A stretch of DNA of 64,000 nucleotides from Parelaphostrongylus tenuis. Lineage: Eukaryota > Nematoda > Chromadorea > Rhabditida > Metastrongylidae. Location of the stretch: NCBI GenBank assembly GCA_019055375.1, contig JAHQIW010000907.1:62001-126000 (forward strand), given 5' to 3'. The notes under the pieces were generated by a model. The model did no database searches. It worked only from the letters and a program-made list of their open reading frames with translations, and was not told the origin of the DNA. Of the stretch, positions 35,761-61,565 are shown piece by piece. The number at the start of each line of letters is the position of its first letter. Positions within the stretch are counted from its first letter, which is position 1. The translations under genes were made by a program, and so were the position numbers.

Positions 35761-36664
35761 GGCGATTAGATAAAATCAATTCTGATTGCAGTCGGTAATT
35801 GGTCATTAGGTTCAGCGGGATTCAAGCACAGCGCATGATTATTGTCGAAGAGATAAACAAACTTTTTCCAAAGATTTTTGCGAAAATTTCCGAAAAAGTT
35901 TATGAAACTGAACATTGAATACGACAAGGATGATGAATAAATTGGTGGCGCAGCGTGCGTCACTCGACGATCATCAGGAGGAAAGGTGATCGTGATAATG
36001 CTGCAGCGATGACTGGCTAGTCAACTAAGGCAATTTTCTCTTCAAGAAAAAAAACAGTACCAAAATTGTGCACCGTTCTTTACTATAACAATTTCAATTT
36101 TGCGTAGTGAAACTTTTGGAAAAACCTAATACTTCACTTTGTTTACATTTTTCGTTCCGTTTCGCAAGTTTCCCCATGTTTCCCCTTCTTTCTAAATTGA
36201 ACTTGAATATTGCATCAACTCTTAGAGTCCACTCATGATACATAGAAATGAGAAGCTGAATGGAAACGCTGTTGAGGTGAATGAAATACGCTAGTGTTGC
36301 TTAGAATGAGGGTAAGTGGGTCACTGTGGCATGATGTCACTTTGCCACCAACATTGTTTTCGCTCCACGAAAAGGTTTGTGAAAATCAAATTCAATTCAA
36401 GATTTATCGCAATTTTGTTATCGAATAAATGCTGAAACTCTGTTGCAAAGCTGTCCACAATCTCTGGCCGAACCAAATGTGCTCGCCAAAGATGAAGCGT
36501 AAATTTATTTTCGCTACTGCACCGTAATAAAAAGGTGTATTCAAAATATCACATCTTTCGATTCGAGTGTATTCTTGAGACCACAGCTCAAATTTCAATA
36601 TGCCTGATAATCATTGTTTGAGTCACGCATGTCAGTGGTCTGTCAAGGAGGGCTGACTTGTAGA

Positions 36665-36707
36665 GCCTGATACACGTGTTTCGATCTTGCGATCTCGTCA
36701 GTCGTGC
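36665..36707 (-). ncRNA. Hammerhead ribozyme, core intact, stem I with two mismatches (A1)
   Basis: Inverted partner of the intact copy at 36993. Core CTGACGA, stem II GATC-GCAA-GATC, GAA, stem III ACAC/GTGT and cleavage A are intact; stem I GCACGA against TCAGGC has two internal mismatches. Confidence 0.6.
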
Positions 36708-36992
36708 TGTTACCCTCGTCTTTTGCCTAATCTCTGTGGGTGCTCTAGTCACATGCGTGGCTCAAATAATGATTATCAGGCATATTGAAATTTGAGGTGT
36801 GGTCCTAAGAAAACACTCGAATTGAAAGATAAGATATTTTGAATATACCAGCCAAGAGCAATCGAGTGTACAACACTCTATGTTCGGTGAGATTTTCACT
36901 GGACATAGAGTGTAAAATGTTCGTCGTCGCTAACTCTTGGTGTGGGAACTGGAGCACTCACAGAGATTAGCAAAAGACGAGAAAGGGTAACT

Positions 36993-37035
36993 GCCCGACT
37001 GACGAGATCGCAAGATCGAAACACGTGTATCGGGC
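36993..37035 (+). ncRNA. Hammerhead ribozyme, type I, intact (subfamily A1)
   Basis: Every part of the fold is present. Stem I GCCCGA (36993-36998) pairs with TCGGGC (37030-37035). The core box CTGACGA is 36999-37005. Stem II is GATC-GCAA-GATC (37006-37017), four perfect pairs with a GNRA loop. GAA is 37018-37020. Stem III is ACAC/GTGT (37021-37028), only four self-complementary pairs. Predicted cleavage follows A37029. The very short stem III is the form known from animal retrozymes and other metazoan repeats, which often work better as dimers. Confidence 0.85.
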
Positions 37036-37204
37036 TCTATGGTATAAGAGAGTGGGGTAGGAGGTATTGTGTGAAATCTAACCACAATAAATAAACCGCT
37101 CGCTTCTTGCTCAAGCGGTGATGGGCTGTCGATGTCTCCCGTCAACATCCTCCATTCAGTGTAGAATCAAAGTTGTGCTAAATATTTTTTTACCCGACCC
37201 GTTT

Positions 37205-37280
37205 TTCGATCCAATGAATCATTGACCTTGTGTGCAACGCAGGGCACCTCTAACCACTACGCCTCATGCGCTCATAATTG
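37205..37280 (-). repeat. SINE S1 head fragment
   Basis: GCGCATGAGGCGTAGTGGTTAG type head on the minus strand and the adjacent B-box region, then ends abruptly. Confidence 0.5.
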
Positions 37281-37659
37281 AGCGAATACCAATCCTTTTT
37301 GCGTTTGCTTCGTTTTCTTGCATCCACATCCATGAGCATCTTGAAACTGTCGTTTTCGCGTGTGGCTCTGACTACTGCTTGAGGATCGTCTTCTTTATGT
37401 ACATTGTTAACTGCTTGCCGAGGTGATTCTCCGTGAAGCCTTGGGACAGCTAGCTCACAGAGTTCTCACCTGAAATTTAGGGAATGAGATGTTTCAGAGC
37501 AGAATTGTTGCCAACTCTTAGCACCGTACTCATGAAGAGCGGAATCACTACCATGTGCGATACGACGTGTCCATCTATCAGCAACCTACCCTGAACATTT
37601 TGGCCTGATAAGCACACATCGGCAGTGTAGCCAAAGAGTGATAGCAGAATAGGAACCTC

Positions 37660-37750
37660 AATAATGCAATTGGTTAGGACGCGCCACCGCAAAGTGTGAA
37701 ATGCGGGTTCGATTCTCGTCTGACGTTCAAAGTTTTGCATACCTCTCAAG
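37660..37750 (+). repeat. tRNA-like repeat unit, single arm
   Basis: GTGTGAAATGCGGGTTCGAT followed by TCTCGTCTGACG and the AAAGTTTTGCA landmark. Confidence 0.45.
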
Positions 37751-38650
37751 GTTATATGCTATATGTGTAACATCATACCAATGCTAGAAACTGTTGAATT
37801 TAAGAAAATCCTTGACAATTATAAGAACACATTTCAATGTCTTTTTTTTGTGGAACACGAAAAGAGGTGTGGTGGTTTCCTGGAACAGTCGTTTTACCGC
37901 TTGTTCCTAAAAAGAATTGGATATACAAAAGAAAATCACACGTCAGAAAGGGGAAACTTTTCATAAGGGAAATTTAAAGGGCAGTCCAATCGCGCACACT
38001 CACCACAGCGCCCATTTCATCCGAAACGTGTTAAAGCATTAATAGAGTCACTATGTCATCTACATCTCTTGGATGTCTCAAAGCAGCAACGCCAGTCCAG
38101 GTATTCTCTTCCCAGACCGAAACATATTTGAAAGTTCTTTGCTTTTCTAAATTCTCGCTAATATCTGCTCGACATGTAATCTTCAGAATCTATCTTCCTG
38201 AGTTGCCTATCACATTGACAACGAGGCGACTCCTCTCGGAGCTTTACTTTTTTCCGATGATTGATCTTCGTTTACAAGTTTTTTCCTGGAAGTCTTCTGA
38301 TCATACGATAGTTTGAAGTTTCGTGATGTAATGTTATGCGTCGCTCGAAGAAATTTCTCTTTAGTAATCTCCACTTGATTGCTTGGATCACGGACTCTGT
38401 TCACTCGACACTTTTTTTTTTTTTTGAAGAGAATTGTTTGAAATAATCGGGTGACCAATTATGGCGAGGACAGTTATTCTTGGACCAATTGGGATTTTAT
38501 CGAAAGTTGATAAACTATGTAATGATTACAGCTAGTCCAAGAGGAACAGTTTCCAAATTAGAACGGTGCAGAAGATTAGGCTTCCATGGAGCCTTACTTT
38601 TTTCCATCTGCTGTAATTTTCTTTCTAGTTTTCACGTAGCATGTGTATAT
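37750..38650. other. Intergenic, nothing recognised
   Basis: Two open frames of 67-87 codons occur here, but codon content and lack of splice signals do not support genes. Confidence 0.4.
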
Positions 38651-39589: not shown

Positions 39590-40070
39590 TTTTTATTTGG
39601 CCGCTTCTAGTGGTGGTATGACGTTATGAATCACCCGCTGATGTAGACTGATTTGCAAAGCTTTCGCGTCAAGCGGGGCTCGAACCCGCATTTCACGCAA
39701 TAGTGGAACGTGTGCTCTATACTTTGTACTACCAACGCCTATTTTGCCACCGCTCTTTTCACGCTACAAAGCATTTATATATCAGCAACCAACCATCAAT
39801 GGTTTGTCATTAGTCGATATCAACATGAAAATCAGTCAAGCTGACAGATATTGGGTATAAGATGATCAGACAGAATTCCTCTAATTTAACCGCTTCTAGC
39901 GGTGGTATGAAAAGAGTGGCGGCAAAATGGGCGTCAGTAGTGCAAGGAATAGAGCAAGAGCCTCCGGATAAGGTGAAGTACGAGTTCGAGTGCCCGCTAA
40001 TGCAAAACTTTCGCGCATCACTCTGACATTATTGGGTTTATTTGTTGTCTCAATTTGTACGAAGTGGTCT
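39590..40070. repeat. tRNA-like foldback element, long spacer
   Basis: Minus unit 39665-39740 (GGGGCTCGAACCCGCATTTC), plus unit 39935-40010, and two copies of the CCGCTTCTAG(C/T)GGTGGTATGA landmark at 39602 and 39892. The S2 SINE follows almost directly. Confidence 0.55.
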
Positions 40071-43600: not shown

Positions 43601-45760
43601 ACAATTGATCATGTATAAGAGTAAAAGACTCTTTTCAACGCTTGAGGACACACTATCAACTATAAATGTGTATATGGCTCCATATATGTACATAAATGTA
43701 CACGCACACGTGTATATGTGTGTGCATGAATATGTATATATATATTATATATATATATATATAGATTTATATATACATATGTATATGTGAGCGCATGTGG
43801 CGCAGTGGTTAGAGGTGGCCTGCGTCGCGCACGAGGTCAATGTTCGATCTCGCGCTCATGGCTCACCAAGCCATACATCCCTCCGGGGTCGGTAAATTGG
43901 TACCAGGCAGGTCTCAGACTTGTCTGGGAGGATAAGCAGCACTGACTCGGTTCAGCGGGAGGCCACCGCGAGTCATTGTAGAGGCCAGATATGCATTCAA
44001 TCACCTCAAACAAAGTGAAAAATTGAAGTCGAATGCATGGCGCATCCCTCAGGGATTGATCAACGCCGAGAGCTTCATCCTTTTTTTATGTATATATACG
44101 CATGTATATGCTCGCTGCGTACACATATCACTGCCATTAGATATACGGTCTAGGAGAAAGATACGATGCTCGAAGGAATTCCTAGAGCGAGGAGGACCCC
44201 ACTGGGCTACTCTTGCACGCCATAGTGGAAAAAAGGAAGTGCTACTGGTGCCCGCTTAGGTCACTCAACGATCAACGGGACGACAGGTGATGCATGCACG
44301 TACATATTATATATAATATATATATATATATGTATGTATACATATACATGTATGTGTATATACATGTGTATATGTATACATGAATATATTACACGTGTAT
44401 GTATAAGTATATACATATGCATGTATGTACATCTACATGCACAAATGTAGAATGAACGCCCTAATAAATTTGCAAGTTGGTTCAACTCATTCATGATAAT
44501 GCATATGTAATTCAATTCGTATCTTCGCAAGAACTGAATGATGTTTCAGTCCGCTATTCCCCTCACTGCATGATATTAAATACCGAAGGTGACGTTGCAA
44601 GATTGCCAATCTTTTACATCAGCCGTCCGTAATAATAGATCCCCTCCACAATACAGTTTTGGTAATGGAACCTTCCATTATATAGCAAACTATTATTCTG
44701 AGAAGAAAACTATTCTTCAGATTTTACCATCAATGTCGATAACAGAGAACAAAATCTTACATTCGTGTCCTATGCAATTTTTGACTCGCATGGCATTCAC
44801 AAAAACGAAATCTGAATACGGGCTTCTTTCCAGAACAACTCCTTGACCTGAAAGAATGACACATTTTATAAGAGCTGATGAGATGACATAAATAAACCAT
44901 GGAGACATTTCCAGACATTTGTCACACTTACATCTACAATTACGATACTAAAAACAAATTGGAAACGAAATAGCTCATAAAGACTCCTTCCATGAAATAC
45001 TGGCAAGCTATGCCAGTTCTAAACCGAGAATACACATTGGCTGATTGTTACCTGTATTCAGTATATGGGCTACAGCATTCAGGTACTGATCGAAACGGCA
45101 TTCAAAAATGCGTTGCTGCATTTTTGCTGTCATATCGCTCATCGGATTTTTGAAAAACATGTCCATGTCAGGCATCCGGTAACACTCAGGAAACTAAATG
45201 AGTGCGATAAAATACAATAATTTGTTAAAAATTGGGGAAAAAACAAAACGGAGGAAATGATTCCCCTACCAAATGATAAAACTTCCTCAAATCATTCCCG
45301 TATCGATCAATGAGCACGTCCTCCATTTTGAACTCAGGCATGTAATAACAACCAAGATGATCAGCGAGTTCAGCAGCAATCGTACTCTACAAATAAAATG
45401 ATAGAGAACATTACCGGACAAAGTAGATCGGAAACACATAAGAAGTGCTATGAAAAACCAACAACACGCACAAGTACAATCGACGAACCTTCCCTGCACC
45501 AGCGTTCCCTTCGACAACGATTAGTTTGGAGTTCTCATGGAAATGAGCTTGAGTTCGATCACGAAAAGCATCCATGTAATTGAAGCCTCGTTCTTTATAT
45601 GGCCAAGGGTCAGGGTAGTCATCAGGAAGTCTAGATGTCTTAGTTTGTAAACATGGAGTTTGAAACGTAAAGCACTTCTAAAATTCCAACTAGCGTGAAA
45701 AGAACGCTTTTTAATTAACAGCTTATAGCGATGGTATTATGTTACTATACATATATATAT

Positions 45761-45796
<36 letters not shown>

Positions 45797-46289
45797 CACA
45801 TATATACGTGTATATGTATACTCTATGATGCAAAGTGAAGCGCAAAACATTCGCGTCAGTGAGACTCGAAACCATATTTCACCCTATGCTGGGGCACGTG
45901 CTCAAAACCGCTGCACTATCGACGCCTGTTTACCTCGTATCATAGTCCGTTGACGGCTGGTTGTTAACAGATAGATGCGTTGTAGCGTAGAAAGATTGGT
46001 GCCAAAACAGGCGTCGCTATCGCAACGGTTCAAGCACGCGCCCCGTTTAGGGTGACATATAGGTTCGAATCCCAACTGGCGCAAAGTTTTGCATCTTCAC
46101 TCCACATCACTGGGTTTATTGTGAAAAGCACTAGTCGAGATCTATCTACTGTACAAATTGTGAACACTACCGCAGTACGCTCTTGTGCACCATGCCCCGG
46201 CTTTGTTGAGCTACGAAAGTGCCACCGGTGAGCAGCGACCGGCAAACTGCCCTACTCAGCAGCTTTGGTATGGAGGACGCCATAGACAT
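40653..46289 (-). CDS. nuo-4: NADH dehydrogenase (complex I) NDUFA10-type subunit, complete
   Basis: Accessory subunit of mitochondrial complex I with a deoxynucleoside-kinase fold, on the matrix side of the membrane arm. Eleven exons join in phase with no break: 46289-46171, 45630-45489, 45386-45270, 45193-45052, 44847-44761, 43540-43416, 43345-43266, 41543-41390, 41314-41177, 41039-40939, 40764-40653, giving 438 residues. Exon 1 encodes an Arg/Ser/Ala-rich, acid-poor presequence beginning MSMASSIPKLL, as expected of a matrix-targeting peptide. Exon 2 ends in the P-loop VEGNAGAGK, with the Ser in exon 3. Then follow RMPDMDMFFKNP, VVLERSPYSDFVF and THEVGELYINPRD, all diagnostic of the nematode protein. 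The stop is TAA at 40653-40655, with AATAAA at 40564-40569. It lies 3' of rnp-7 on the same strand and was probably made from a shared pre-mRNA. Confidence 0.95.
43670..43788. repeat. AT/ATGT microsatellite 5' of a SINE
   Basis: Purine-pyrimidine alternation ending directly at the S1 SINE head. Confidence 0.85.
43789..44088 (+). mobile_element. tRNA-derived SINE (S1), full length
   Basis: A box TGGCGCAGTGG at 43798-43808; body and CTTCATCCTTTTTTT tail match the other S1 copies. Flanked on both sides by TA/CA-rich microsatellite. In nuo-4 intron 5. Confidence 0.8.
44290..44445. repeat. AT/ATGT microsatellite
   Basis: TATATA and ATGTATAC units over about 150 nt in nuo-4 intron 5. Confidence 0.85.
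45700..46120. repeat. tRNA-like foldback element with microsatellite, in nuo-4 intron 1
   Basis: Minus unit 45845-45925, plus unit 46005-46085 (GCGTCGCTATCGCAACGG ... GGTTCGAATCCC). An AT microsatellite at 45750-45822 sits in the left end. Confidence 0.5.
45750..45822. repeat. AT microsatellite
   Basis: Long (TA)n with ACATACAC interruptions. Confidence 0.9.
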
Positions 46290-46816: not shown

Positions 46817-49800
46817 TTATCTTCTATCGCGACCATACGGTGGAGGAGGTCCACGAAAACGGCGATCATCACGTGCATATCCATTGTCTCTGAAAACGAT
46901 TAAGCATTGAATCGAGCAGACTTCTAGAATATTTTCAATATCTTGGTTCTAAGCTATCGAACCAATCAATGAAATGAAATAGCGAAAAACTACCTTCGGT
47001 CACGGCCATAATAACGGTCGCGATCGTATCGATCACTGCCGCGATTATTTGCACGTTCACGCGAACGACTACGGTGTTTTGAAGATCCATTCCTGTCGTA
47101 ATCACGGTGACTGTCTCGAGGAGGAGCACGAGGAGAATCTCGGTCGCGGTCGCGATCGCGTGTGCCGTCCAGTGGAGGTAATCCAGCAGCTTCACGTTCT
47201 TCAATAGCAGCACGAGATTCACGTGCACGTCTGGTATCCCCCTTACCACCACCTAAACGACGCCGGAGTAAGCACCAGAAAGATACCTCAGAAATTCTAA
47301 GGAAAGAAGATCCAACTGTGCAATTTTTTTTCTTCTTGATGCATCAAGAACGATGACACGGAACCCAAGAGAGAAAAACTTCACATGCTACTATGCCGTG
47401 ATTACTTACATTGACATCCTGTAACACTCAATTTTACAAAAACTCACCGAGTCTCCTAGGTAACCAAGACTTCTGAGTACGACCTCTTTCATAGTCCACA
47501 ATGAGCCTACGTCCATCAACTTTTGTCCCATCGGCCCGTTTGTAAGCATCTAAAATTTGTGGTCTGAACTCGTGTCAAAGAAAAGTCTTACCATTACCTG
47601 GCACAGCAGAGAAATTACACGCAGGGCTGGATGGTATTAAAAAGTTCGGCGGCTGATACTATTTAGAAAAGAACTTACGCAGCAAACTTACGGTCCGACT
47701 AAACTTACATTGCGCGCACAGAAATCACTGCCATCGAGGTACTGCACAGTGAGAGAAAACTTACCCGTATGCTTACCCGAAAATGACAAAAACTCGAAAA
47801 GTCACCTACACGCAAACAACTCACGACCGCTAAGAGGACAGTCGTGATCCCTTTTTGGGTATAATTTCGACTCAAACAAATTACAATGAATGGAAAGGTT
47901 TACCAATGCTCCGAAACATCGCCTAGTGTTCAACGACGAAGTTCAGATGAAGCTCAATTTTCTAACTCTACTACGAATCAAGTGTGCGTTGTCGTCTAAT
48001 TTTTAGAAGGCACATTTCACTTGATAATTAGAAGAAAAATGCCTTGACAAAACCGAGCACTTGGAAATCTTAAAAACTCCCAATTACGTTACGTTCAAAT
48101 GAACTTCGTCTCAAACAAACCTATTCATTCAACCAGTAACCAGCGCAAAAGCAGAATATGAACCTCTGGCGAAGTGCTGTAAGAAAACAGCAATTATTTT
48201 CGTAAAATGACTACAACAGATTAGCCAACTATGCTTGAGGTTATTAATAAGCGTAATGCAAGTTAGACATCCTACTAGCCGCGCACAACTCCCTTCAAGA
48301 TCATCAAATTTCTAAAGGTTAACTAGCTAGATAGAGACTAATGAAGAGGTAACTTGATTATAAGCTATAAGAAAACTGACTAGACATTTCCGCCTTATCA
48401 CTGTATTCTATGAAGGCATACCCTCGTCGGTTTCCCATTCAAATCGTGTATCATCACTAACTGAAAATACAACAAATCGCTGCATTCATTTTCAGCAAGA
48501 TTGGAAAAATTACTCTAATAAGTATAAAGACGGATTCTATTCGCTTACCTTCTTTATTTTTCCATAAGTTTCGAACTCACGCTTCAATCTATTTTCGGAA
48601 GTTTCATAATTCTGAAAAAAAATATATATGAACGACTCAAGAGAGTACCTATCTAGGTAACATCTAACACTTACAATTCTAGCGACGAAAAGCGTCTTGT
48701 ATGGATCCTCTGTGGCATTCGGATTATCAGCAGGATTCCATTGCGCAATACCTTGTTCTACCTAAGACAAAACAATCATTCATTTATGGAGACTTCTATG
48801 ACGAGATTGATACTAGGTTGGAAAGAAAATTTCCCATCGTTTGGATCGGAATGTCGTTTTTTCGTATGGATCGTGTAAGATTTTCACATCAATTGGAAGG
48901 TCTACTTCTTGCGCATCTATTGATGTGTAATTTGTCTATATCTGCTGCAAGATGGAAGTACCCAGAACTGGTTCGTCGAAAGCGCGCTTTGTTTCAAGAC
49001 ACGAAACCACACATAGTCAAAAAGACCAAGGCAAAGCTTAAGGGACTGGACGGAGTTAAGATTCTACCGCATCCACCCTATAGTCCGGATGTTCCTCCGT
49101 GTGATTACGGCCTTTCCGACCAATGGAACACTTTTTAGAAGGTCGTCCGATTTAACTCTCTCGATGAAGTTGAAGAAGCACGTTATGAGTTCTTTGATTC
49201 AAATCCAAAGGAGTGGTACTTCGATCAGATCCGAAACCTAGCGGGCCGATGGCATGAAGTGGCGGATAATGACGGCCTCTATTCTCAAGATTAGTTGTTG
49301 TTGTTGTTTGTTGTCTGAATATATTAATAAATTTTGAATGTTTTATCATACGATGGAAACTTTCTTTCCAAACTAGTATTAGCTCTCCTCATAAGTTTTG
49401 ACTCTAGAGCAAGCAGCACCCAATTTATTACCTTGAAGAAGTTAAAATTGCTTAACACCACTATTCATAGTGTAAGCGTTCTCAGTCTGAACACAATTTC
49501 TGCCACCTCTCATGCAACAAATCAAAACCGCTTCGTGCAAAATTTTCTGAGCTTTCTTTCAGTACCAAATTTGTCCACACTGCCATATCATGGTCGCTCA
49601 ACGAACCTTTGTAGCACTTTGCTGCGTTACGACTAGGAATTAGAACACGATGCACAGACCACCTTCGAGGACCATCAACCGTGCAAAAGCTCGATGACAT
49701 GTTCAGACGAACAACGTTTCGGTTCGTTGCCAGATCGCGCCGACAACACCATCTTGAAGGACCAGCTGCGCTCTAGACGTCCACGCGAAGTTGATAGCGA

Positions 49801-51736
49801 AGCCGTCATCGAAGCAACTGGAGGGGGATCCGACTTTGACTACCTAGGAGTTGGCCGACGATTTTGACTGTGGTCATGTGACAATCAGCAAATGTTAAGT
49901 AATCTTACAATTTTAATTACATCCGGTTAGTAAATTTGATGATTACCGCTCTAGAGGCCAAAACATATAAGAAGACCTATAAAAATACAGGTAATTTCAA
50001 AAAAACATGACAGTATTCTTTCCACCGAGGTGATCAATACAACCTAAGCAAACACAAGAACACGTACATTTGTTTACACGTGACATGATATATACGGAAG
50101 ATAGGAGACTATGGCTCAGTGGTTTGTGACACATGTCATCAAGAATTATCATTAAGCGTGTTAGTTTGACCCCCCCCCCCCGGCACTCTTGGAGTCACCT
50201 GGAAGCGCACTGGTTTAGTGAAATAGTAGCCTTCGAAATTAGAAACAGCAAGCTCAATTAGTGAACCTTTCTGCATCACAGAGCAAATATATGGTCACTT
50301 TTGCGACTCGCTCAGCCCTCATTTGCCACTTCGGGATGTGCTATTTGTCACTGGATATGGCATACAGCATGGATACTGCCCTGTCGTGATACCACACAGG
50401 CATTTCGCCTCAATATACCATATTAATTTGTATTTACACGACCCTCCATCACAATTTTTACTGTGCGGATCCCAATACTTCTAACATTCGATTCGCTTTT
50501 CGTTTTCACATTGAATGACGTCGAATACTGGTCGAGCATGTCTCCTTGCAATCTCGAGGATAGCCCTAGCTGTGGAGTTCCATGGGGCGTTCTTGTTGAC
50601 TGCCGGAGTGTTGGGGGTTGCGGTTCGGCCTCACGTGCACCGCGACGAGTATCACAACCACTCGGCCACGGCGCCCCCACATACATATGTACATGTGCGT
50701 ATACATACATATATACGTACATAAAAGGATAAGGATAAAGCTCTCGGCGTTGATCAATCCCTGAGGGATGCGCCATGCATTCGACTTCAATTTTTAACTT
50801 CGTTTGAGGTGATTGAACGCATATCTGGCCTTTACAATGACTCGCGGAGGCCTCCCGCTGAACCGAGTCAGTGCTGCTTATCCTCCCAGACAAGTCTGAG
50901 ACCTGCCTGGTACCAATTTACCGACCCCTGAGGGATGGATGGTTTGGTGAGCCATGAGCGCGAGATCGAACCATTGACCTCGTGTGCGACGCAGGGCACC
51001 TCTAACCACTGCGCCACATGCGCTCATATACGTACATATACATGCATATATATGTATGAACATGTACGTACACACATACAATTTGCATGGAATTAACAGC
51101 GTAACGTAACCAGTAAATCCATAGGAACATTCTAACCTTATACGCCAAAAGCTCTTCTTTTTCCCGTCTTCTTCTTTCTTTCTTTTCTGCTTTCGTTTCA
51201 ATGATTGGCTTTGGAGGAGTGTCCATAGGATCCTGAAAATGTTCCCATTAACTTAATTAGCTCCAGCTAGTATATTTTATTTGACCGCCTATTGCGGTGT
51301 TATGATGTTTCTATGAACCCAATGATGTCGAGTGGTGTGCAAAAACGTTTACGTCAGCCGGGATTTGAACCCAAATCTTACTCAGAAAGAAGATCCGAAA
51401 CAGTAAGATCTGGGTTCAAATCCCGGCTGACGTGAACGTTTTTGCACACCACTCTACATCACTGGGTTTATATTTATTTGCTTAAAAAAACATGTTCGTT
51501 TTATGAGATACCATTTCCTTCTACTCCCTGAAATTCTACTCTGGAAAAACATCTGACTACACCGAAAACGTGGTTCTCACCTCAAATAACTCAACATATT
51601 CAGCGATTCCTGTGATAGTGGTACATCGTCCTTTTTCTCTTTTGTCGATAAGCAAATCCGTCGGAGGCGGTAGATATGGAATTGGTGGTCTGGCTTCGAA
51701 TAGCGCCAAAAGATTCGGAGGCAGGCAGGCGGTCAT
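46817..51736 (-). CDS. rnp-7: U1 small nuclear ribonucleoprotein 70 kDa, one frame break
   Basis: Binds stem-loop I of U1 snRNA and helps define 5' splice sites. Eight exons: 51736-51581, 51232-51137, 48761-48675, 48611-48549, 48460-48381, 47549-47448, 47252-46994, 46889-46817, about 304 residues. N-terminus [20 protein letters not shown] is the hallmark start of U1-70K; exon 2 is a Lys/Arg/Glu-rich helix ([15 protein letters not shown]). The RRM runs from KTLFVARI (RNP2) through GYAFIEY (RNP1) to [13 protein letters not shown], then [15 protein letters not shown] and an Arg/Asp/Ser-rich tail ending YGRDRR. The start is fixed by a likely spliced-leader acceptor (CCAG) two bases upstream of the ATG. 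Exon 5 carries one extra base near 48430, between GKP and the RNP1 motif; both flanks stay conserved. Intron 2 (48762-51136) is inflated by mariner and SINE insertions. Confidence 0.95.
48816..49373 (+). mobile_element. Internally deleted mariner element, with TIRs and TA duplication
   Basis: Terminal inverted repeats GGTTGGAAAGAAAATTTCCC (48816) and GGAAACTTTCTTTCCAA (ending 49373) are flanked by TA on each side. Inside, plus strand, is the C-terminal third of a mariner transposase: [32 protein letters not shown], and after a frame break near 49137, [16 protein letters not shown]. The N-terminal DNA-binding part is missing. In rnp-7 intron 2, opposite strand. Confidence 0.75.
49490..49640 (-). 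pseudogene. mariner transposase C-terminal fragment
   Basis: Minus frame reads [15 protein letters not shown], the conserved end of mariner transposases, preceded by diverged sequence. In rnp-7 intron 2. Confidence 0.45.
49690..49900 (+). pseudogene. mariner transposase N-terminal fragment
   Basis: [17 protein letters not shown] followed in another frame by GDPTLTT and [15 protein letters not shown], the helix-turn-helix region of mariner transposases, with at least one shift and one stop. Confidence 0.5.
50458..50682 (-). mobile_element. SINE S2 in rnp-7 intron 2
   Basis: A-box complement CCACTCGGCCA at 50658-50668, 3' end ATTGGGATCCGCACAGTAAA on the minus strand. Adjacent to the S1 SINE at 50724, separated by microsatellite. 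Confidence 0.6.
50724..51025 (-). mobile_element. tRNA-derived SINE (family S1) with 13-bp target-site duplication
   Basis: Reads GAGCGCATGTGGCGCAGTGG... on the minus strand. Pol III A box TGGCGCAGTGG is at 51006-51016 and a B box of GGTTCGATCTC type follows. About 300 nt, 3' tail of ATCCTTTAT-like repeats. Flanked by ATATACGTACATA at 50711-50723 and 51026-51038, direct proof of insertion. Lies in intron 2 of rnp-7, about 110 nt from exon 2. Confidence 0.85.
51280..51475. repeat. Compact tRNA-half foldback, near-perfect hairpin
   Basis: Arms 51316-51383 and 51402-51468 are inverse copies of about 68 nt. Each holds CAGCCGGGATTTGAACCC, i.e. a tRNA T-arm/B-box plus acceptor half, and an outer GTGCAAAAACGTTTACGT segment. 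Only 18 nt separate the arms. Confidence 0.7.
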
Positions 51737-52592: not shown

Positions 52593-55500
52593 ATGATGAC
52601 AGAGAGTGGCGGCGGTGGTGAACAGGCGATCATCGTCGATGGCGTCTATGACAAACAAGTCCTAGACATCGTCGACTCGTCGGTAGGTGTACACCGTTCT
52701 GTTCTGTGGAGACCAGCGAACATAGTCGATAGTTCGATCACAATATGCTTGGCAATTGTTTTTTGAGCCATGCATGTAGTCTGTCACAGGGAAACTTGTA
52801 GAGCCCGATGCACGACGGCTTTCGGCCTTGACAGCCTCGTCAGTCGGTCAGTGGCCCTTCGTCTTTAGCCAGTCCCTCCTCAGGGGGAATTCAACCCCGA
52901 TGCAGGGATGGCAAAGACGAACGTCTTACACGTTCCTTTAAGTGAAAACGTCACTGTTTGGGCGAGTGTTGTACCATCGATTGCTTTTGGCTGATATCGT
53001 TAGGTATATATCATACCTTTCGTTGCGTTTTCTGTTCCTTTCAGTGTTTTTTTTTTCACTTAATGGCGCGTGTAAAACTTTCGTCGTCGCCAACTTTATG
53101 TAGGGGGTTGGGTTTCCCCGAGAGCATTGACTAAGACGAAGGTCCCGCCCGAGTGAGGAGCCTGTCAAGCACGAAACGCGTCGATGGGGCTCTATAAGTT
53201 GCACTTTAACGGACCACATGCATGGCTCAAAAAACGACTATTAGGCATACTGGGTTTTGAGCGTGGTCTTAGGAAAACATTCGAAACCAAAAGTTCAATC
53301 GCATTTTCCTCCGTTAATGAGATTATATAGGGGTGGAATGGGCTCTGTTTCTGTAAAAATCCAGGAGGCGGAGTGGATATGAAGAAATTTCCATCCTACC
53401 TCTTTTTTTGCTACCTGAGGCGGGAGTTGAACCAGCGTTGCGACTCTTCGATATCTAAGTAAAACTTATAGCTTTCATTTCGAGTGTTCCTCTAGACCAC
53501 GCTCAAATTTTTATATCCCTAATAGTAATTTCTGAATCATGCATGTGGTCTGCTATAAGCACTTATACAGTGCAGGACACATGTTTCGGCCTTACAGCCT
53601 CGTCAGTTGCTTGCGTTTGAGCCAATCCGTTGCGAGGGAAACCCTCCTTACATAAAAGTGTACTCGTCATGTAAGAGCACTTCACCAATCAAATTTTCCT
53701 CCTTATTCTCTTTCCGCCTTCATTTTCCACACAGTTGGTAGCTGACAGGTAAATACGTTGGAACGTAAAAAAGTGATGAGCATAATAGGCGTCAGTGGTG
53801 CAACGGGTTAGAACACGCGCTCCCAGATAGAGTGAGATGTGGGTTCGAGTCCCGCCTGACGCGAGAGTTTTGCACAACACTCTATATCACTGTGAAGATT
53901 TTCACCCTTCATAAGATTACATTCGAGGACAGAATGTGCTCCATTTCTTGACAAATCCAGGATGCGGAGTGGATATATGCAGAACTTTCGACCTCAGGCT
54001 GGAGTTGAACCGCGTTGCACCCCCTCGATATATAATCATTTATGACACTGCCACAAGAGCGGTTAGATTATTCAAATAAATTTTATACTTTTATTCCGAG
54101 TGCTTTATTAAGACCACGCTCAAATTTCAATATATCCTTTCATTACTATTTAAGCCAACTTGTCATGTGGTCTGGTAAGGGCTCTTCTACAGCCCGAGAC
54201 ACGTGTTTCGTCCTTACAGACTCGTCAGTCGGGCAGAACCCGTCGTCTTTCGATCTTTTCTATAGTCAGTTCTCTCGGGAGCCTAGCTCTCCCATACAGA
54301 CATCATCGAAGACAAACGTTTTACACTCTATTCTAAGGATCTATTGAAATTTGAGCGTGGTTTCAACAAAGCACTCGAAATAAAGGTATAACATGATAAA
54401 AATACCAGCTAAAGAGCAATCGAGTGCACAACGCTCTATGTTAGGTGAAAATTTCACTTGACATAGAGTGTAAAACGTTCGTTTCGATGACTCTCTGCAA
54501 GGGAGAGTGGGGATCTGGAGAGAACTGATTAATAGAAAGATCGAAAGACGACGGGTTCTGCCCGACTGACAAGTCTGTAAGGACGAAAGACGTGTATCGG
54601 GCTGTACAAGAGCCCTTACCAAACCACATGACAAGTTGGCTCGAATAATAATGAAAAGATAAATTTTATAGTTTGAGCTATTTTGACTAGAGGTACTGGA
54701 TTGATTGACCTCGTATGAGAACCGTTTTCGTATTCTGACTGATTCATTATGTTGTGATCCTTTTATATTCGACTATTTCTCCAAGATTAGATAAATCCTG
54801 ACAGCATATTCAAAGGTATTATCTGCATACTCAAAAATATAATATCAAGTAACCATATTAAAAATATCAGCCTTGAGCAATCAACCATTGCTCACTGCAG
54901 CAGTGATATATTAGCCATTGGTGAAGTGAATTCGTTTTACACGTGGGGTGACGTGTTCGTCGACGATTCCTCTATATAAGGGGATTCTCCTCCGAAAGGT
55001 ATTGGCTCAAACGAAGGCACCGTGAAACTGGCGAGGCTGCAAGGCCGAAACACGTATATTGCCACTGTATAGTGACCATAACAGACCTCACAAAAGGCTC
55101 AAAGATACACTGTAAGGATATGTTCTAATCGTTTTGAACTGCCTCCCATCTTCCCATCTACTGCGCGGATCCTAGCATCTCCTTCAATTCGCTCCCTCGC
55201 ATCCCGTCGTCCGCGAAAGCTTTTGACTGTTTCTGTATGAGTGGATTGAGCTTTCCTTTCCCCGTGAATGTTGTTGAATGTAGAATTTTATCCTCCTTGA
55301 AGTCCTGGGATAGTACGCGGGACAGTTCCCACTCTAACCACTGAAAGTGAACTTCTCCCAGACAGGTCGGGTATGAATTTCTTGATCCTGGAGAGAGAAA
55401 TGGCATGAACTTTTCGAAGCAAGCTAGAGCAAGCTCGTGCTCATGACGTTCTACATCTTACTGGTTTTTATGTGCCAATCGAAAGTATTTAGGCAACCAT

Positions 55501-58500
55501 ATCTATAATCGAGAGCGCGTGTGACGCAGTGGTTAGAGATGCACTGCGACACGAGCTCACCAAGCCTCCTATCCCTCCGAGGTTGGTGAATTGGTGCCAC
55601 ATTTGTCTCGGAGGATAGCAGCATTGATCTGATACAATAGTCGGCCACCCGAGTCATTTTAACCCTCGTGGTCGTGGACCCATGACCTCTGAGCCTCTAA
55701 CCTTCAACGTGTTGCGTCTAACAATGGCGTCTAATGGCATTTGGTGTTGATAGGCTCAATACGTTAAGGTTGACATCCACTGTTAGACGAAGTATGCTGA
55801 AGGTTAGAGTACCAGAAGCCGTGGGTCTACGGTCCCGTAGGGGTTAAAGGCCAGATTCGCATTCAGTCACCCTAGAGGATACTTGATGAAGTCGAATGCA
55901 TGTGCGTCCCTCATGGGTTAACCAATCTTGGTGAGCTCTGGATGCGGAATCGAACCATCAACCATGTGTGTGTCGCAGAGCTGCTCTAACCACTATGCCT
56001 CTCGCTCCCGTAAAGATTTAAAAAAAGGATTATGTGGTTCTGTTTGTTGTAAGATGTGTCCATGCAAGGACTGTGTGAAGTCATCACCGTAGAGAATCGC
56101 TAAATCGGGGTAGATGTGGCAGCCCATGATTAGCATGCGTCTGGGAGGACAGTGGCCTCCGACTTTGTTTCCTATTCGTTGTACTTATCTCCGGATCGAA
56201 TGGTCAAGCTTATCATGAACTAAAAATATTCTAATTAATCATGCATTCCGCTGAGCTAGTGGTTCACCACTACATCATTTAACCTTTCAAGGACCATGAG
56301 AGTCATTTTGATGCTCAACGCGCGACGTCAAATCGTACTCAGCTACTGTAATGGCTAATGGCGGCATGACAACGTCACGTCTCGTGGGAAAGCAGGCAGA
56401 CATCCAGACACATGCAGAGCCGCTGGTATGACTGCCGCGCATTGGTCCTCAATGTGTTAATAACGATGAAAGTGATAAGCCACCAGAAGGGACAAGATGG
56501 GAGGGGGGGGGGGCGCTTAACGTCGTGTTTGTAAACGTGGGATATCCAAGCGTTAGAAATGTTTTAAGAAACTTCAAAGGCACTTCTAATGCTTGTGTCC
56601 TTCCACTTGATAAAAGGAGTATCGATCGATTTCAGATGTGGTTTTTTTCTGTACAGGTTACGATATCCTTTTTGTAATTGTTTCCGTCGCCAGGAGTTGC
56701 TGGAAGAGGTCGGAGAATACGACGAGTCCATTGACCAATCGCTTCATGACACGTATGGTGAAGAAGGTGAGCATGATACGACAGGCGATGGTTCGTACGG
56801 TGGAATGCCTCTCGATCTCTACGATAATATCGTAGAGTTTAAAAGGTCAGTCCACGAATACTTAACTCTTCCATGCAAGAACATTTCCTATATCTGCTTG
56901 AAGCTCAGTCTTTGGTGAATAATCTTCGTAGCTCTTCATTGCGGTGCTTTATGTATCTGTATTATTTTAGTTATAAGTTTGTAGTTCTGCTCAGTAACCT
57001 TCCAGCTGATTTCAAAATCTTCATAGTGTACCTTTACTTCGAGTGCTTTGTTAAGACCACGCTCAAATTTCATTAGATCCTGTCATTGTTATTTGAGCCA
57101 ACTTGTCATGTGGTCTGGTAAGAGCTCTTGTACAGCCCGATACACGTGTTTCGTCTTTAATAATAATATAATAAAAAAAGGATCTATTGAAATTTGGCGT
57201 GGTCTTAATAAAGCACTCGAAGCACAAGATATAATATGATAAAAATACCAGCCAAAGAGCAATCGAGTGCACAAACGCTCTGTATTAGATGAAAATTTCA
57301 CTTGACATAGAGTGTAAAACGTTCGTCTTCGATGACTCTCTACAAGGGAGCTGAGCTCCCGAGATAACGGACTATAGAAATATCGAAAGGCGACGGGTTC
57401 TGCCCGACTGACGAGTCTGCAAGGACGAAACTCGTGTATCGGGCTGTACAATACTAGACCACATGACAAGTTGGCTCAAATAATAATGAAAGGATTTTCA
57501 GAGTGTCTCAAAGGAACTAGAAGCTTCAACACATTGGGGACGACCCACATCCACAGCACTAGTCCCGCTCCCAATGGATCTGCGTTTTATATCAAAAAGT
57601 AGTAAACTGTAGAACAACTGAGCGTTTTTTTTTTTACAATCACATTAGAGAAGAACTTTCAATGCTAATCGATAACAGAACATAACACCAAAAAGACCAC
57701 TGGAAGCGTCGTGTTAGGGTATCGAACCAGCAATCTTCTTTGCAATGAATGGCGCACGAGGCACTCGTCACTACGGGCTGCTGGCCACAGAGCCTCCGCG
57801 CTCACGACGGGGAGGGATGGCGCTATGGGTCTGTCGCCCCAGTGGGTTAATATTTCAGAGTCATCAAACCTATACACTGGTGTATAAAGACAAGGGTAAA
57901 GGATGAAGCTTTCGGCGTTGATCAATCCCTGAAGGATGTGCCATGCTTTCGTCTCCAATTTTAACTTCCTTTGAGGTGATTGTTCATATCTGGCCTTTAC
58001 TATGACTCGCAGTGGCCTATCGATGTATCAAGTCAGTGCCGCTATCCTCCCAGACAATTCTGGTTCTAGTTCACTGACTCTGGAGTGATGGAAGACTTGG
58101 CGAACACTGAGCACAAGTAACAAATCGTCGACCCCGTGTGTGTTGCGTAGTGCACCTCTAACCACTGCGCCACCCGCTCCTTAGATAGTTGTAACATATT
58201 CGATTCGTAACGTATCTTATATGAAGTAACAAAATTGCGCTTTGGATTCATAGAGAATCAACTCAGATGTGGTAAACCCCTTAATAGGGACCAATCATTG
58301 TAGTAAGCAAGGGTTTGATCTGTAAAGGCCAGTGTTTAGGACCGGAACGTACCCTGCAAATATCGGTACTCGACATGATCGCAGCGCACTAAGTCATTGG
58401 CGGTTGGTTTTTTCATGGTTTTATATCGTTCATCTTTTTTTTTCTCTCGTTCAAAGTATTTGTATCAGAAGTCACTTACGAGAGAGAAACCCATACATCA

Positions 58501-60937
58501 ATCCTTACGTGAAAGAGAACAAATAATTTTGACAATTTTTGTGATTTAGTGCGAGATGTATGCGATTTGTGCTAGCTGATGACAATGAGACATTACTTTA
58601 CTACAATCCATCGAGTAGTGTGAATGATCAGCCAAAAGTGGTAGTCAAACGAGGAGAAGTTCGTCGTGTAATAGAACGAATACACGATCTCATCGGCCAC
58701 CTGGGACAAAAACGCACGTGAGTTCAAGCACCTGTAAGATAGATAAAATACGAAAGAATAAGTTCGGTAATGGTAATTGAGTGACCCTATTCGTACAGCA
58801 GGATTCCTTGGCCTTTTTTGGTTATTAGATAAGTTGAGGAATGATTACTTAACGATTTTACTCAGCGCAATCCGTTATCACAATTCACTGTGCACAATCG
58901 AGCGCTTCTAGCATTCGATTCGTTTCCTCGCGCTCACCGTCCCTCAAAGCTCATGGAACGTTTTCGCGTTGCCTAGGCTTCTACTTAAGGATTTCCGCTT
59001 TTCTCAAAGAAAGTTGGAGAACGATGGCCAAGACGATTCTCCTTCTAGGTAGTCGAACTAAGGCGTTCAGTTGATTGTACAAGAAAATGTTGGGAAAGGG
59101 GACCGAACCAGGGCATTGCTACTCCCACTTGAAAATTTGAGATGTAAACAAACTTGGAGTTAGAATAATGTTTCTTATTTCTTTCTTACTTTATTGATCC
59201 GTCTTCACAGTGCTTTTTTTTTCATCATTATGCGGATCCAGTGCTCCTAACATCCAATTCGTTTTTTCGGTCTCTTCGTGAATGTCGTAGAATACTGGTT
59301 GAGCACGTCTTCTTGCATTATCGAGGATAGCCTGGCTATGGCGTTCCATACGGGACGTTGTTGACTGCCGGAGAGAGTTGAAGGATGGGATTTCACCCGC
59401 GCGTGCCGCTATGAACATCACTACCAATCGGCCACTGCGCACGTCCCCAAATAACGTACCGGAATAATCATATAGACCATTAGAGCGATAACTCAAAGCA
59501 ATCTCGTGTAAGTCCACCACGTTCTTGAGTCCTTGTGTATTTGATGACCGAGAATATGGTAGGTTGTTGAAGGAACCAGTGTATGCCAGACTCCGTGATA
59601 TGCCACTGCTTAACGTTCGATTTTGCAGGAATATCTCATAGGCGAAATCCCATCTATCTAGTTACGGTACTTCGCTGGGTGTGGGGTAGCGTAGTGGTTA
59701 GTGATGTAGTGTATCATGAAGCAAGGTGAAAAGGAAGGCTGTTGTTCCATTCCTTTCCAAACATTTTAACAGTAGATCAATGGACACCTTAGAAAACGCT
59801 TAAATTCGGTATTTGAGGACGAGTAGTGTAGAATAATTAGTAGTAGATTAACAAATACTATTTACAGCAAGTAGCTATGATACGCTTCGCCATTTAGTCA
59901 CTTTACACTGTATTATTGTGGTCCACCTCATACCGCAAAATCAGCCCTTCAAGAAAACGTCTCCTAGGCTACATCTGACACGGCTTTTGTGTTGGATAAG
60001 CCATTGGCTTATGTAAAAACGTAGCAAGTAAGTCTGATGGAACGTCAATCGATAAAAGTATATGCATTGAGATCAATGCACTTCGTCCACTTCCACCGCA
60101 ACACATACGTTGCAGTCAAGACGTTTCCAGCATCACATGTTGATACGACTATATGAAAGCCACGAAGAATCACACTGACTTCATTTTTCTACTTTTAGTT
60201 GTTTTTCGTGGTACCTTTGAGTAAATTAGCAGTAGTTGATAGCCATCATTCCGGGGCATCTCCACACTTAGAGCTTAATCAAATGCGATAAGGCTGATTG
60301 AGCCATCTACGGTTTTGTGGTAATGTGAAGATCTCTATTTCAGACAGATCGTGGTTTTGAAAAAACTTCACTGGCGTTCCGTTCGGCAGGATGTGCGCAC
60401 GTTCATCAACAATTGTGCTTTCTGTAATCAGAAAAAGATTGAAGGGAAGAAAATCTTGAAGGCGCCGGTTGATGTTACGAGTTGGTTTACAGTTTAATTT
60501 ACAGAGACAGATAGACCCCCGCTTCTATTGTAGGCATTGATGACAATGATCACATATCTGGATCAAACGAGTCGCATATTTTCAGGTGAAAACTTCGATT
60601 TGAATATTGAGGTTCGGAGTAAGCCTGCGGAAAGCAACGAAACATACGATCGGTTGACGTTTAGTCTCATCGGGTAATCGCTCTTTCGTATGTCTGAATT
60701 CAACCCAGTGATACAGTCTCAATTATCAACCTTTCCAAAAAACCTTTTGTTATTGTCATCAGCTTATTACAACCTTTCAAGTGCAGTTTCTTATTCAGAT
60801 ATAATGAGCAAGAAGTACGTGCAGCAGCTGTTACAAGAATGACCGCGTACACATTCAAGGAGACTGCAAGTGAACTTCGAGGACGATTCGCTCGTCCAAA
60901 TTCCGTCAGTACTCTTTTCAACACGTTTTTTCAGTGA
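52593..60937 (+). CDS. Host-like gene with lone integrase-type H2C2 zinc-binding module
   Basis: Not recognised as a named gene. Six exons join in phase: 52593-52682, 56694-56845, 58550-58717, 60344-60480, 60586-60673, 60799-60937, coding for 257 residues and ending in TGA. A TTTTCAG acceptor at 52570-52576, 16 bases before the ATG, is probably a spliced-leader site. Residues 1-80 are Gly/Glu/Asp-rich and acidic. About residues 82-170 look like the zinc-binding module that precedes a retroelement integrase: a short beta segment (FVLADDNETLLYYNP), then a His-x4-His pair in IHDLIGH, 29 residues, and NCAFCNQKK with Cys-x2-Cys. No catalytic DDE integrase core follows; the rest (about 85 residues) has no motif I know. 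The exon 4 donor (A at 60480, then GTTGGT) is weak; reading through would stop after three more codons. Being spliced, unbroken and single-domain, it looks like a domesticated gene. It is divergent from rnp-7. Confidence 0.72.
52700..53290. repeat. Hammerhead-element inverted dimer (divergent A1) in intron 1 of the zinc-module gene
   Basis: Minus ribozyme at about 52802-52849 keeps CTGACGA, a strong stem II and GAA but has an enlarged stem III; plus relic at about 53146-53190 has C3 and other core changes. Central CAGCC...GCAATCGATG segment on the minus strand at about 52972-53000. Confidence 0.55.
53478..53690. repeat. Hammerhead element, single minus arm (A2)
   Basis: One arm only, from the CGAGTGTTCC...GACCACGCTC landmark to TGTAAGAGCACTTCACC. 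Holds the ribozyme 53570-53611. Confidence 0.5.
53570..53611 (-). ncRNA. Hammerhead ribozyme, core intact, stem I decayed (A2)
   Basis: Minus strand has CTGACGA, stem II GGC(T)/(A)GGCC type, GAA, stem III ACAT/GTGT and a C cleavage residue, but stem I (AGCAA against CTGCAC) has mismatches next to the core. Confidence 0.55.
53790..53880 (+). repeat. tRNA-like foldback arm with complete cloverleaf-like unit
   Basis: GCGTCAG and CTGACGC at the ends pair as a 7-bp acceptor stem; GTGGG-TTCGAGT-CCCGC is a T arm with a B box; a 4-of-5-bp anticodon stem CTCCC/GTGAG closes a 7-nt loop. The loop lacks U33 and the D arm is weak, so it is not a working tRNA. Followed by the family's GAGAGTTTTGCACAACACTC. 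Confidence 0.6.
54085..54660. repeat. Hammerhead-element inverted dimer (A1)
   Basis: Minus copy 54085-54345 with the intact ribozyme 54192-54234, plus copy 54345-54660 whose ribozyme (about 54557-54599) has G8 changed to A (CTGACAA). Termini are inverted: TTTATTCCGAGTGCTTTATT... at the left matches the right copy's AAAGCACTCGAAATAAAG. Confidence 0.7.
54192..54234 (-). ncRNA. Hammerhead ribozyme, type I, intact (subfamily A1)
   Basis: On the minus strand: stem I GCCCGA/TCGGGC, core CTGACGA, stem II GTCT-GTAA-GGAC (one wobble), GAA, stem III ACAC/GTGT, cleavage residue C (a GUC site, the preferred triplet). Beyond stem I an outer helix GGGTTCT/AGAGCCC can form, with TGTAGA bulged on one side, as in natural type-I hammerheads whose stem I contacts loop II. 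It lies in intron 1 of the zinc-module gene, antisense to it. Confidence 0.85.
54790..55130 (+). repeat. Hammerhead element, single plus arm (A2)
   Basis: Central ATATCAGCC...GAGCAATCAACC segment at about 54866-54890, ribozyme relic at about 55013-55055 (core CTGGCGA, A6 lost), closing with ACAGACCTCACAAAAGGCTC. Confidence 0.5.
55515..55925 (+). mobile_element. tRNA-derived SINE (S1) split by a nested TTAA element
   Basis: Head GAGCGCGTGTGACGCAGTGG; the B-box region is partly deleted. The SINE stops at 55658 and resumes at 55848 exactly in register, interrupted by the element described next. In intron 1 of the zinc-module gene. Confidence 0.7.
55659..55847. mobile_element. piggyBac-like MITE, TTAA target-site duplication
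   Basis: About 185 nt between two TTAA copies, starting CCCTCGTGGTCGTGGACCCA and ending with an imperfect inverse (TGGGTCTACGGTCCCGTAGGGG). The arms continue as an imperfect hairpin (CTCTAACCTTCA on both strands). CCC...GGG termini with TTAA duplications are the piggyBac signature; there is no coding capacity. Confidence 0.65.
55930..56012 (-). repeat. SINE S1 head fragment
   Basis: Minus-strand GGGAGCGAGAGGCATAGTGG through the B-box-like segment GGTTCGATTCCG. Confidence 0.5.
57030..57490. repeat. Hammerhead-element inverted dimer (A1), truncated minus arm, in intron 2 of the zinc-module gene
   Basis: Minus arm (57035-57160) is cut off inside the ribozyme, just after the stem III/GAA part. 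The plus arm (57178-57490) is full length: AATACCAGCC at about 57245, TAGAGTGTAAAACG, then the near-intact ribozyme 57402-57444. Confidence 0.65.
57402..57444 (+). ncRNA. Hammerhead ribozyme, near-intact (A1), in intron 2 of the zinc-module gene
   Basis: Stem I GCCCGA/TCGGGC, core CTGACGA, stem II GTCT-GCAA-GGAC and GAA are all intact; stem III reads ACTC/GTGT with one mismatch. It is on the sense strand of the host gene, so it would be present in that gene's primary transcript. Confidence 0.7.
57640..57850. repeat. Partial family-F foldback arm
   Basis: ATAACACCAAAAAG and GTATCGAACCAGCAATCTTC match the right arm of the 12843 and 19315 copies. Confidence 0.4.
57893..58182 (-). mobile_element. 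tRNA-derived SINE (S1)
   Basis: Minus-strand copy from CCGCTCC...TGGCGCAGTGG (A box near 58168) to the GCTTTCGGCGTTGATCAATC end and AAGGATGAAG tail complement. In intron 2 of the zinc-module gene. Confidence 0.75.
58880..59110 (-). repeat. Probable SINE S2-related repeat
   Basis: GCGCTTCTAGCATTCGATTCG and the TACTTAAGGATTTCC segment match the S2 3' half; head not recognised. Confidence 0.35.
59213..59445 (-). mobile_element. SINE S2 in intron 3 of the zinc-module gene
   Basis: CGCAGTGGCCGATTGGTAG head near 59425-59440 and GATCCGCATAATGATG 3' end on the minus strand. Confidence 0.55.
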
Positions 60938-61004
60938 ATCAAATAATTAACAATATAATGTAGAGGGATTCGGCAGCCCTTAGTTCTCCAATTACGAAAT
61001 GATT

Positions 61005-61565
61005 CAAGGCATCGACTGTTTTTAAAACCTCACGTAAACTTTCGATCCAATTTTTAAGAATGCTTGAAGCCTTACCCGAGGTAGGTACGCCAGGGTCATA
61101 CACCGGGTTTTGGAGGTCTCGCCCTTCTCTCCAGTGACCCACTCCTCACTCTAAGCCCTGCACTGTAGCAAAGAGGCGTGGGGCATGGGTCACTCACGAG
61201 GAGTGCGAGACCTCCAAAACACCATGGCACGTATGACCATGGCGTGCCAACCTCGGGTAAGGCTTTGAGCATTCTTAGAAATTAGATTGAATGTTTATTG
61301 CGAGGTTTCAAAAACGGTCGATGCCATAGATCAATTTTGTTCTACCAGCCATGATCCATCGACTGAGAAGTGATGATGACACAGTGTCATTGTACTCTGT
61401 GCCGTCACCACATACGCCTCCATCCTTGCTACAATGCAGGGCTTGATGTGGGGCGTGGGTCACTGACGAGGAGGGCGAGATCTCCGAAACACCGGTGTAT
61501 GACCCTGGCGTACCAACCTCGGGTAAGGCTTCTAAGCTTTCTTAAAAATCTAGATTGAATGCGAA
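61005..61565. repeat. Hammerhead element with direct-repeat ribozymes (A3), 266-nt monomer
   Basis: Three ribozyme units: minus relic 61088-61136, plus relic about 61186-61240 (CTCACGA core, cleavage position A61233), plus intact 61457-61505 (cleavage A61499). The 61234-61499 unit is a complete monomer of 266 nt between two like-oriented sites. The downstream flank after each plus site repeats (CAACCTCGGGTAAGGCTT at 61248 and 61513). Central hairpin GGTCGAT...TACCAGCC...ATCGACT at about 61314-61361. Confidence 0.72.
61457..61505 (+). ncRNA. Hammerhead ribozyme, type I, intact (subfamily A3)
   Basis: Stem I GGGTCA (61457-61462) pairs with TGACCC (61500-61505). Core CTGACGA is 61463-61469. Stem II is GGAG (61470-61473) with CTCC (61482-61485) around an 8-nt loop. 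GAA is 61486-61488. Stem III is ACACC/GGTGT (61489-61498), five self-complementary pairs. Cleavage is predicted after A61499. The stems differ in sequence from subfamily A1 while the catalytic residues are identical, which argues for a real fold and not mere repeat identity. Confidence 0.87.

Follow-up and report, generated by a model that had tools for sequence, protein, structure and literature searches.

We identified, in a stretch of 64,000 nucleotides of Parelaphostrongylus tenuis DNA (the window, analysed at its full length), twelve short repeat elements, most of which are inverted pairs with a hammerhead ribozyme or its remnant on each strand. We propose, with a probability of about 60%, that they are retrozyme-like non-coding elements whose circular RNA was reverse-transcribed from both strands of the target site, most likely by an enzyme of the Penelope-like (PLE) kind. 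According to this proposal, a multimeric or read-through RNA would be cut by its hammerhead and closed into a circle, and a reverse transcriptase (RT) would cut both target strands. Each target 3' end would prime on the circle, one at a site A and the other at a site B; the two cDNAs would travel round the circle, often for about one lap, and would then be joined, giving an inverted pair in which both strands contain a hammerhead. We infer cleavage, the circle and the enzyme from the sequence and covariation of the elements and from the insertion footprint observed in the DNA, which consists of two internal start sites bounding a tail of about 40-50 nt, with both strands primed.

A strict motif script requiring the core and stems I, II and III found exactly three intact type-I hammerheads in the whole window, at 36999-37029(+), 54228-54198(-) and 61463-61499(+). 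These are the three copies that a sequence-only reading of this DNA had called intact, and the cuts predicted from the motif, after 37029, 54198(-) and 61499, coincide with those it had given. No strict match appeared in 60 windows simulated with a Markov-1 model at the dinucleotide transition rates of the real sequence, and chance matching was ruled out by this count. A loose pattern gave 46 matches against 16.3 expected, several ends of one site being counted apart. Strict and relaxed scans, anchors and a covariance model together yielded 21 hammerhead or decayed hammerhead sites, spread over 11 of the 12 elements. Three of the 21 are intact, with a CUGANGA...GAAA core, H17, and three helices with stem I open; the remaining 18 carry defects. 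The relaxed scan or the loose pattern revealed a full core with a defect elsewhere at 36701(-), 57408(+), 53606(-), 29845(+) and 52843(-), in line with the four or five such copies that had been anticipated.

In Rfam 15, the copy at 54192-54234(-) scored 38.0 bits for RF00163, above the gathering score of 34. The copy at 57402-57444(+) reached 27.2 bits, under the cut-off, and the other two intact copies were unreported for RF00163 in a permissive search of 30000-64000, so that the Rfam check suggested earlier confirms, on its own, one intact copy. We also built a covariance model from 16 hammerhead sites of the window and accepted matches at E<=5. It returned 20 matches, namely the 16 training sites, three further sites in elements (18871-18913, E 1.8e-9; 61455-61507, E 1e-4; 57132-57164, E 0.23) and one outside the elements (12384-12417, E 0.83) that we took as chance. 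The Rfam match above threshold, the motif counts against simulation and the covariation in stems I and II support the view that these repeats carry type-I hammerheads, as had been claimed. Viral contigs scanned with a 32-base hammerhead pattern gave no match.

Together, the twelve elements occupy 5788 bp, or 9% of the window, and fall into three subfamilies, F1, F2 and F3. The family had been placed at 36545..61565; it is present there, but the range is too narrow, since elements also lie at 4728-5348, 18322-18966, 24972-25535 and 29384-29977. Five inverted pairs belong to F1. In E1 (4728-5348, minus), the core is altered in the hammerhead at 4876-4846(-) as well as in that at 5253-5283(+). 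E5 (36548-37041, minus) combines the intact hammerhead at 36993-37035(+), with its predicted cut after 37029, and a second one at 36664-36707(-) that keeps a full core and four of six stem I pairs. E6 (52721-53290, plus) holds a hammerhead at 52843(-) and a decayed one at 53145-53193(+). E8 (54088-54658, minus) contains the intact copy recognised by Rfam, predicted to cut after 54198, together with one at 54558-54605(+) whose core reads CTGACAA and whose stem III has a mismatch. In E10 (57028-57486, minus), the hammerhead on the minus strand is truncated and the one at 57402-57444(+) has ACTC/GTGT as stem III.

Subfamily F2 has no intact hammerhead. Its inverted pairs are E2 (18322-18966, minus), with decayed hammerheads at 18437-18480(-) and 18871-18913(+); E3 (24972-25535, plus), with hammerheads at 25071-25041(-) and 25395-25425(+), both changed in the core; and E4 (29384-29977, plus), with a core change in the hammerhead at 29473-29443(-) and a broken stem III in the one at 29845(+). 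Its single arms are E7 (53470-53645, minus), with a hammerhead at 53606-53576(-) broken in stem I, and E9 (54841-55120, plus), with a core of CTGGCGA in the hammerhead at 55028(+). To F3 belong E11 (60990-61562, minus) and the single arm E12 (35175-35416, plus), in which the hammerhead core is lost. E11 carries a hammerhead remnant at 61134(-) and two forward hammerheads 270 bp apart, a decayed one at 61193 and the intact one at 61457-61505, predicted to cut after 61499.

All twelve elements have a GC content of 0.40-0.49, and Rfam reported no tRNA match inside any of them. Pfam revealed no RT or endonuclease domain in the 29 stop-to-stop frames of at least 110 aa in the whole window, which include frames overlapping E8, E10 and E11. 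E1 probably sits in an intron of an O-GlcNAc transferase gene, the one host gene recognised, because it is flanked by exons of that gene (Pfam GT41 and TPR; 1373-2514, 6324-6665 and 11035-11535, minus strand).

Next, we examined the pairing of hammerhead stems in an alignment of 16 of the 21 sites (the E2 5' arm, the truncated E10 3' arm and three E11 copies were omitted). Hammerhead pairs were formed in 89.0% of cells. Both sides of a pair were changed in 26 cells, compared with 8.7+/-2.7 after shuffling and 1-4 with slid partners, and the covariation score was 0.345 versus 0.181; the number of independent events behind these cell counts is small, because related copies recur in them. Stem I changes include C-G to U-A, C-G to G-C and G-C to A-U, and stem II changes include G-C to A-U and U-A as well as C-G to U-A, bearing out the compensatory change that had been claimed for both stems. 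Double changes affected 5 pairs (4.0 shuffled) and there were 14 further pair types (15.5 shuffled), neither figure being unusual. In a list entered by hand for 16 of the 21 sites, the other five being altered as judged by eye, 11 of 16 copies have a perfectly palindromic stem III (ACACGTGT, or ACACCGGTGT in E11). Palindromic stem III is seen in hammerheads thought to act as dimers, as described in excerpts of PMC3088659 and PMC7229834.

Are these hammerheads relics without present function, inherited from an old retrozyme and playing no role in the life of the element? Defects in 18 of the 21 sites would fit such a history. So would the conservation test, in which the ratio of hammerhead to flank conservation was 0.70 between families and 0.59 between arms of one element, leaving selection on the hammerhead through excess conservation unsupported. 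Furthermore, insertion in vitro by the Penelope-like protein of Anolis (PAc) was unchanged by hammerhead mutants (PMC11167929). Against this explanation stand three intact copies in two families and the covariation across families, which implies that the hammerhead was kept in the source lineages. On these grounds we regard the relic explanation as improbable. Predicted folds were mixed, with a z of -2.66 for 36988-37036 and of -0.18 for 54186-54240, and the minimum free energy folds of both segments had the core occupied by other pairs. Full-length E8 RNA was predicted to form a rod burying the ribozyme (-346 kcal/mol), as is expected for any palindrome.

To place arms on a common scale, we took units from single copies, set position 1 at the base after the cleavage site and mapped the arms thereon. 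Unit lengths are 320, 344 and 266 nt across the three families, with one type-I hammerhead per unit. The arms begin at two fixed points, A at about 60 nt and B at about 105 nt past the cleavage site. Ten of 11 A arms start at 51-80 untrimmed (45-68 when trimmed to element ends), the exception being E5 at 10; all ten B arms start at 96-130 untrimmed (83-118 trimmed). Alternative reference units placed A at 45-61 and B at 83-111, with E9 split. None of 20,000 uniform draws was as clustered as the observed starts, either in a first simulation with values hand-picked from the untrimmed and trimmed mappings or in repeats with the untrimmed values and with those from one single reference. One A and one B are found in eight of the nine pairs, and E5 combines B with position 10.

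The distance copied round the unit is informative too. Three elements exceed one lap, E1 with 1.34, E4 with 1.13 and the forward arm of E11 with 1.42 (referenced to its own unit), and in each the excess is also visible as a direct repeat in self-comparison (4726-4835/5040-5150 in E1; 29598-29630/29942-29975 in E4). E2 (1.05), E8 (1.02) and E10 (1.03) go about one lap, stopping near their own start, and the single arms E9 and E12 cover 0.90 and 0.92 lap, respectively. On an RNA cut by its own hammerhead, copying would stop at position 1. The stops nearest the cleavage site are those of E1 at 11 and of E10 at 302 of 320, the latter lying past the cut by 18 nt. A circular template accounts best for this, with tandem RNA as the alternative. 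Counting against the circle specifically, a tandem linear RNA could also yield more than one lap, and only E1, E4 and E11 clearly exceed one.

A stem-loop common to the three families lies at site B. In E8 it spans 54371-54427(+), with a stem of GCACTCGA/TCGAGTGC and a CCAGC motif, and its homologues are found at 57213-57270(+), 5011-5067(-), 36813-36869(+), 52973-53038(-), 18657-18713(+), 29617-29673(+), 61313-61367(+) and 35181-35235(+). Its general form is [C/A]AnTCGA..CCAGC..ATCGAnTG. We aligned it in nine of the 12 elements (E3, E7 and E9 omitted; one end of E6 lacking 8 bases). Among the nine sequences, pair 5-59 occurs as C-G four times, as G-C four times and as A-U once, and both sides are changed in seven cells versus 3.1 after shuffling. 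The motif CCAGC...ATCGA occurs six times against 0.17 expected, the pattern having been written after viewing the sequences. Several B ends resemble TCGAAnnnAAAG.

Self-comparison revealed the architecture that the sequence-only reading had left unnoticed, namely that nine of the 12 elements (E1-E6, E8, E10 and E11) are inverted pairs of 459-645 bp. We first read these palindromes, some of them with target site duplications (TSDs), as a MITE or other DNA transposon whose long terminal inverted repeats bear the hammerheads, the palindrome being inherited whole. This reading was dropped because an element does not have the same sequence at its two outer ends, which correspond to the separate unit positions A and B, roughly 40-50 nt from each other. 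Some copies above one lap, the grouping of arms by element and the unlike junctions among the nine pairs also speak against it, and we now consider it very improbable.

The grouping of arms was examined in 28 comparisons among eight of the nine inverted pairs (E11 and all three single arms omitted). Site patterns were element-specific in 481 cases, arm-specific in 49 and cross in 48; three of the 28 comparisons were uninformative (E8/E10 with 0:0:0, and E4/E2 and E5/E6 with 5:4:2 each). Within the same family the counts were 134, 24 and 12, respectively, and none of 200 re-dealings of arm partners reached 134 (mean 54.8, maximum 115). A maximum-likelihood tree was weak, with two of 15 inner branches starred. 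It joined the arms of E1 (88/97) and of E3 (99/99), and left those of E5 and E4 unpaired, the E5 3' arm going with E6 (88/92) and the E4 5' arm with E9 (85/73).

Shared changes within an element would also be expected if an inverted-dimer master were inherited and its arms kept alike by gene conversion, and conserved ends would fit as well. However, the arms of one element now differ by 7-35%, and junction positions vary among the nine pairs, including the relatives E8 versus E10 and E2 versus E4, making a converted master quite improbable. Snap-back synthesis of the second strand was likewise ruled out, because one arm contains sequence past the content of the other (as in E8, E10 and E4). 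On balance, the site patterns suggest that each inverted pair came from a single template and was made at or shortly before insertion, the palindrome itself not being inherited.

Clear TSDs of 10-12 bp flank three elements: CTATAAAACA in E1 (4718-4727/5349-5358), AGTAGATCTTTC in E4 (29372-29383/29978-29989) and ATAAATTTTATA in E8 (54076-54087/54659-54670). Their scores of at least 10 are reached by 0.1% of random pairs, a comparison that is flattered, as the ends were placed after an earlier TSD scan. E10 (around TTCATAGTGT/TTCAGAGTGT) and E12 have weak TSDs with a score of 7, reached by 4% of random pairs. The TSD scripts, run over all 12 elements, found none for the other seven. By eye, a possible TSD missed by the scripts is seen at E6 (AGTTCGATCAC/AGTTCAATCGC).

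Inverted pairs in the window are also formed by tRNA-derived SINEs, T1 to T5 (26985-27170, 35440-35776, 39590-40045, 45812-46125 and 51272-51476). Their same-template test gave 54 element-specific versus 11 arm-specific and 8 cross patterns, and visual inspection of T2, T3 and T5 shows a short end opposite one that has an extra hairpin and finishes in A-rich sequence. Inverted insertion thus seems general for this genome and not special to hammerhead RNA. These SINEs strengthen the case for priming on both strands and weaken inversion as a proof of the circle: because they form inverted pairs too, inversion alone is no such proof.

Twin priming is known for LINEs, and we ask whether a linear tandem RNA handled by a LINE-type RT could have produced the hammerhead elements, the inverted arms arising by frequent L1-style twin priming on two RNAs of a single locus. 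The tRNA-SINEs, whose RNA is presumably linear and which are nevertheless inverted, favour this explanation, and a tandem RNA would account for 1.1-1.4 laps. By contrast, the inverted arms overlap in content, unlike those expected from twin priming on a single linear RNA; each of the two starts has a set position within the unit; inverted pairs make up nine of 12 elements; and a same-direction hammerhead pair occurs, within the window, only in E11. We therefore judge LINE-type twin priming unlikely, while leaving it a real share of the probability.

The proposed circle, copied from both target strands, has its closest counterpart in PAc, which cuts and extends both target strands in vitro (PMC11167929). 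According to that study, PAc starts reverse transcription inside the RNA, within a stem-loop, with an optional 'tail' of 30-40 bp between two start sites; it prefers AT-rich DNA, and the PAc locus has a hammerhead. The hammerhead elements are alike in their internal stem-loop RT start, the use of both strands, AT-rich targets and a hammerhead in the RNA, and their tail of about 40-50 nt compares with the 30-40 bp of PAc. They differ in that A and B seem to be divided between strands, whereas the start site of PAc is alike on top and bottom strands. The footprint of two start sites with both strands primed fits Penelope-like mobilisation closely, apart from this strand difference. PLEs themselves carry an RT (and GIY-YIG) ORF, to which none of the 29 frames scanned with Pfam corresponds. 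PLE loci are also tandem with pseudo-LTRs, and PLE hammerheads are minimal variants, as far as excerpts of PMC6155905 and PMC7761336 describe them.

Metazoan non-LTR retrozymes, as described in the excerpted text of Cervera and de la Pena 2020 (PMC7229834), have a small unit, roughly 150-450 bp long, that carries a type-I hammerhead, a GC content below 50% and a TSD that, if present, is longer than 4 bp. The present elements agree with all of these features. Retrozymes are, however, direct tandem repeats there, while two same-direction hammerheads are found here only in E11 and inverted pairs, in which each strand has a single hammerhead, account for nine of 12 elements. The ribozyme is of a known kind and the elements are retrozyme-like; they are not classed as retrozymes because the direct tandem layout was looked for and not found. 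Schistosoma W-elements and Sm-alpha share with them a type-I hammerhead, short repeats and a parasitic worm as host, and are set apart by descriptions that, in the excerpts of PMC8490949 and PMC6155905, contain no inverted pairs with two start sites. Newt and axolotl satellites share the tiny stem III and palindromic loop, with hammerheads more active as dimers, and are set apart by their tandem arrays, again by description in the excerpts of PMC7229834. The parallel with SINE-like repeats and satellites drawn in the sequence-only reading is incomplete in this light, as inverted pairs, two fixed start sites and copies exceeding a single unit come nearer to what a retrozyme RNA would leave when inserted by a Penelope-like mechanism. 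Among the literature matches listed, from a search with subscription papers mostly outside it, there was neither a native nematode hammerhead family nor a hammerhead retroelement built of inverted pairs.

In the excerpts of PMC7229834, circRNA is proposed as the RT template of metazoan retrozymes and PLEs are named 'a strong candidate', with both the enzyme and the use of circRNA as template left open. The DNA analysed here seems to keep a record of this step in its two fixed starts, its laps beyond one unit and its two arms from one template. We put forward, at somewhat less than even odds, a broader reading in which one probably Penelope-like RT normally primes both cut strands simultaneously at two fixed sites of its partner RNA, hammerhead circles and tRNA-SINEs both land as inverted pairs, and laps round a circular template are preserved in the hammerhead elements. 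If true genome-wide, the RNA-to-DNA step would be readable from many insertions and open to tests in which a Penelope-like protein is used in purified form. The finding might also bring nematodes into hammerhead biology and explain palindromic repeats in such a genome.

Several other features of the window were noted. AT-rich simple repeats at 43650-45850 give many weak Rfam matches to microRNA families, which we took as artefacts. An ORF piece at 48683-49138(+) has no Pfam match and contains a motif of 16 protein letters that we presume to be mariner-like. The palindrome at 6917-7122 has CTGATGA...GAAAC in both arms; it was left uncounted as a hammerhead, since it has an extra base ahead of stem II and lacks stem I, and it is perhaps a decayed minimal variant. 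Palindromic repeats free of hammerheads are seen at 12893-13498, 19388-19786, 24007-24422, 448-1174 and 55658-55848, the first two of which are mutually alike and show, by eye, tRNA-like boxes.
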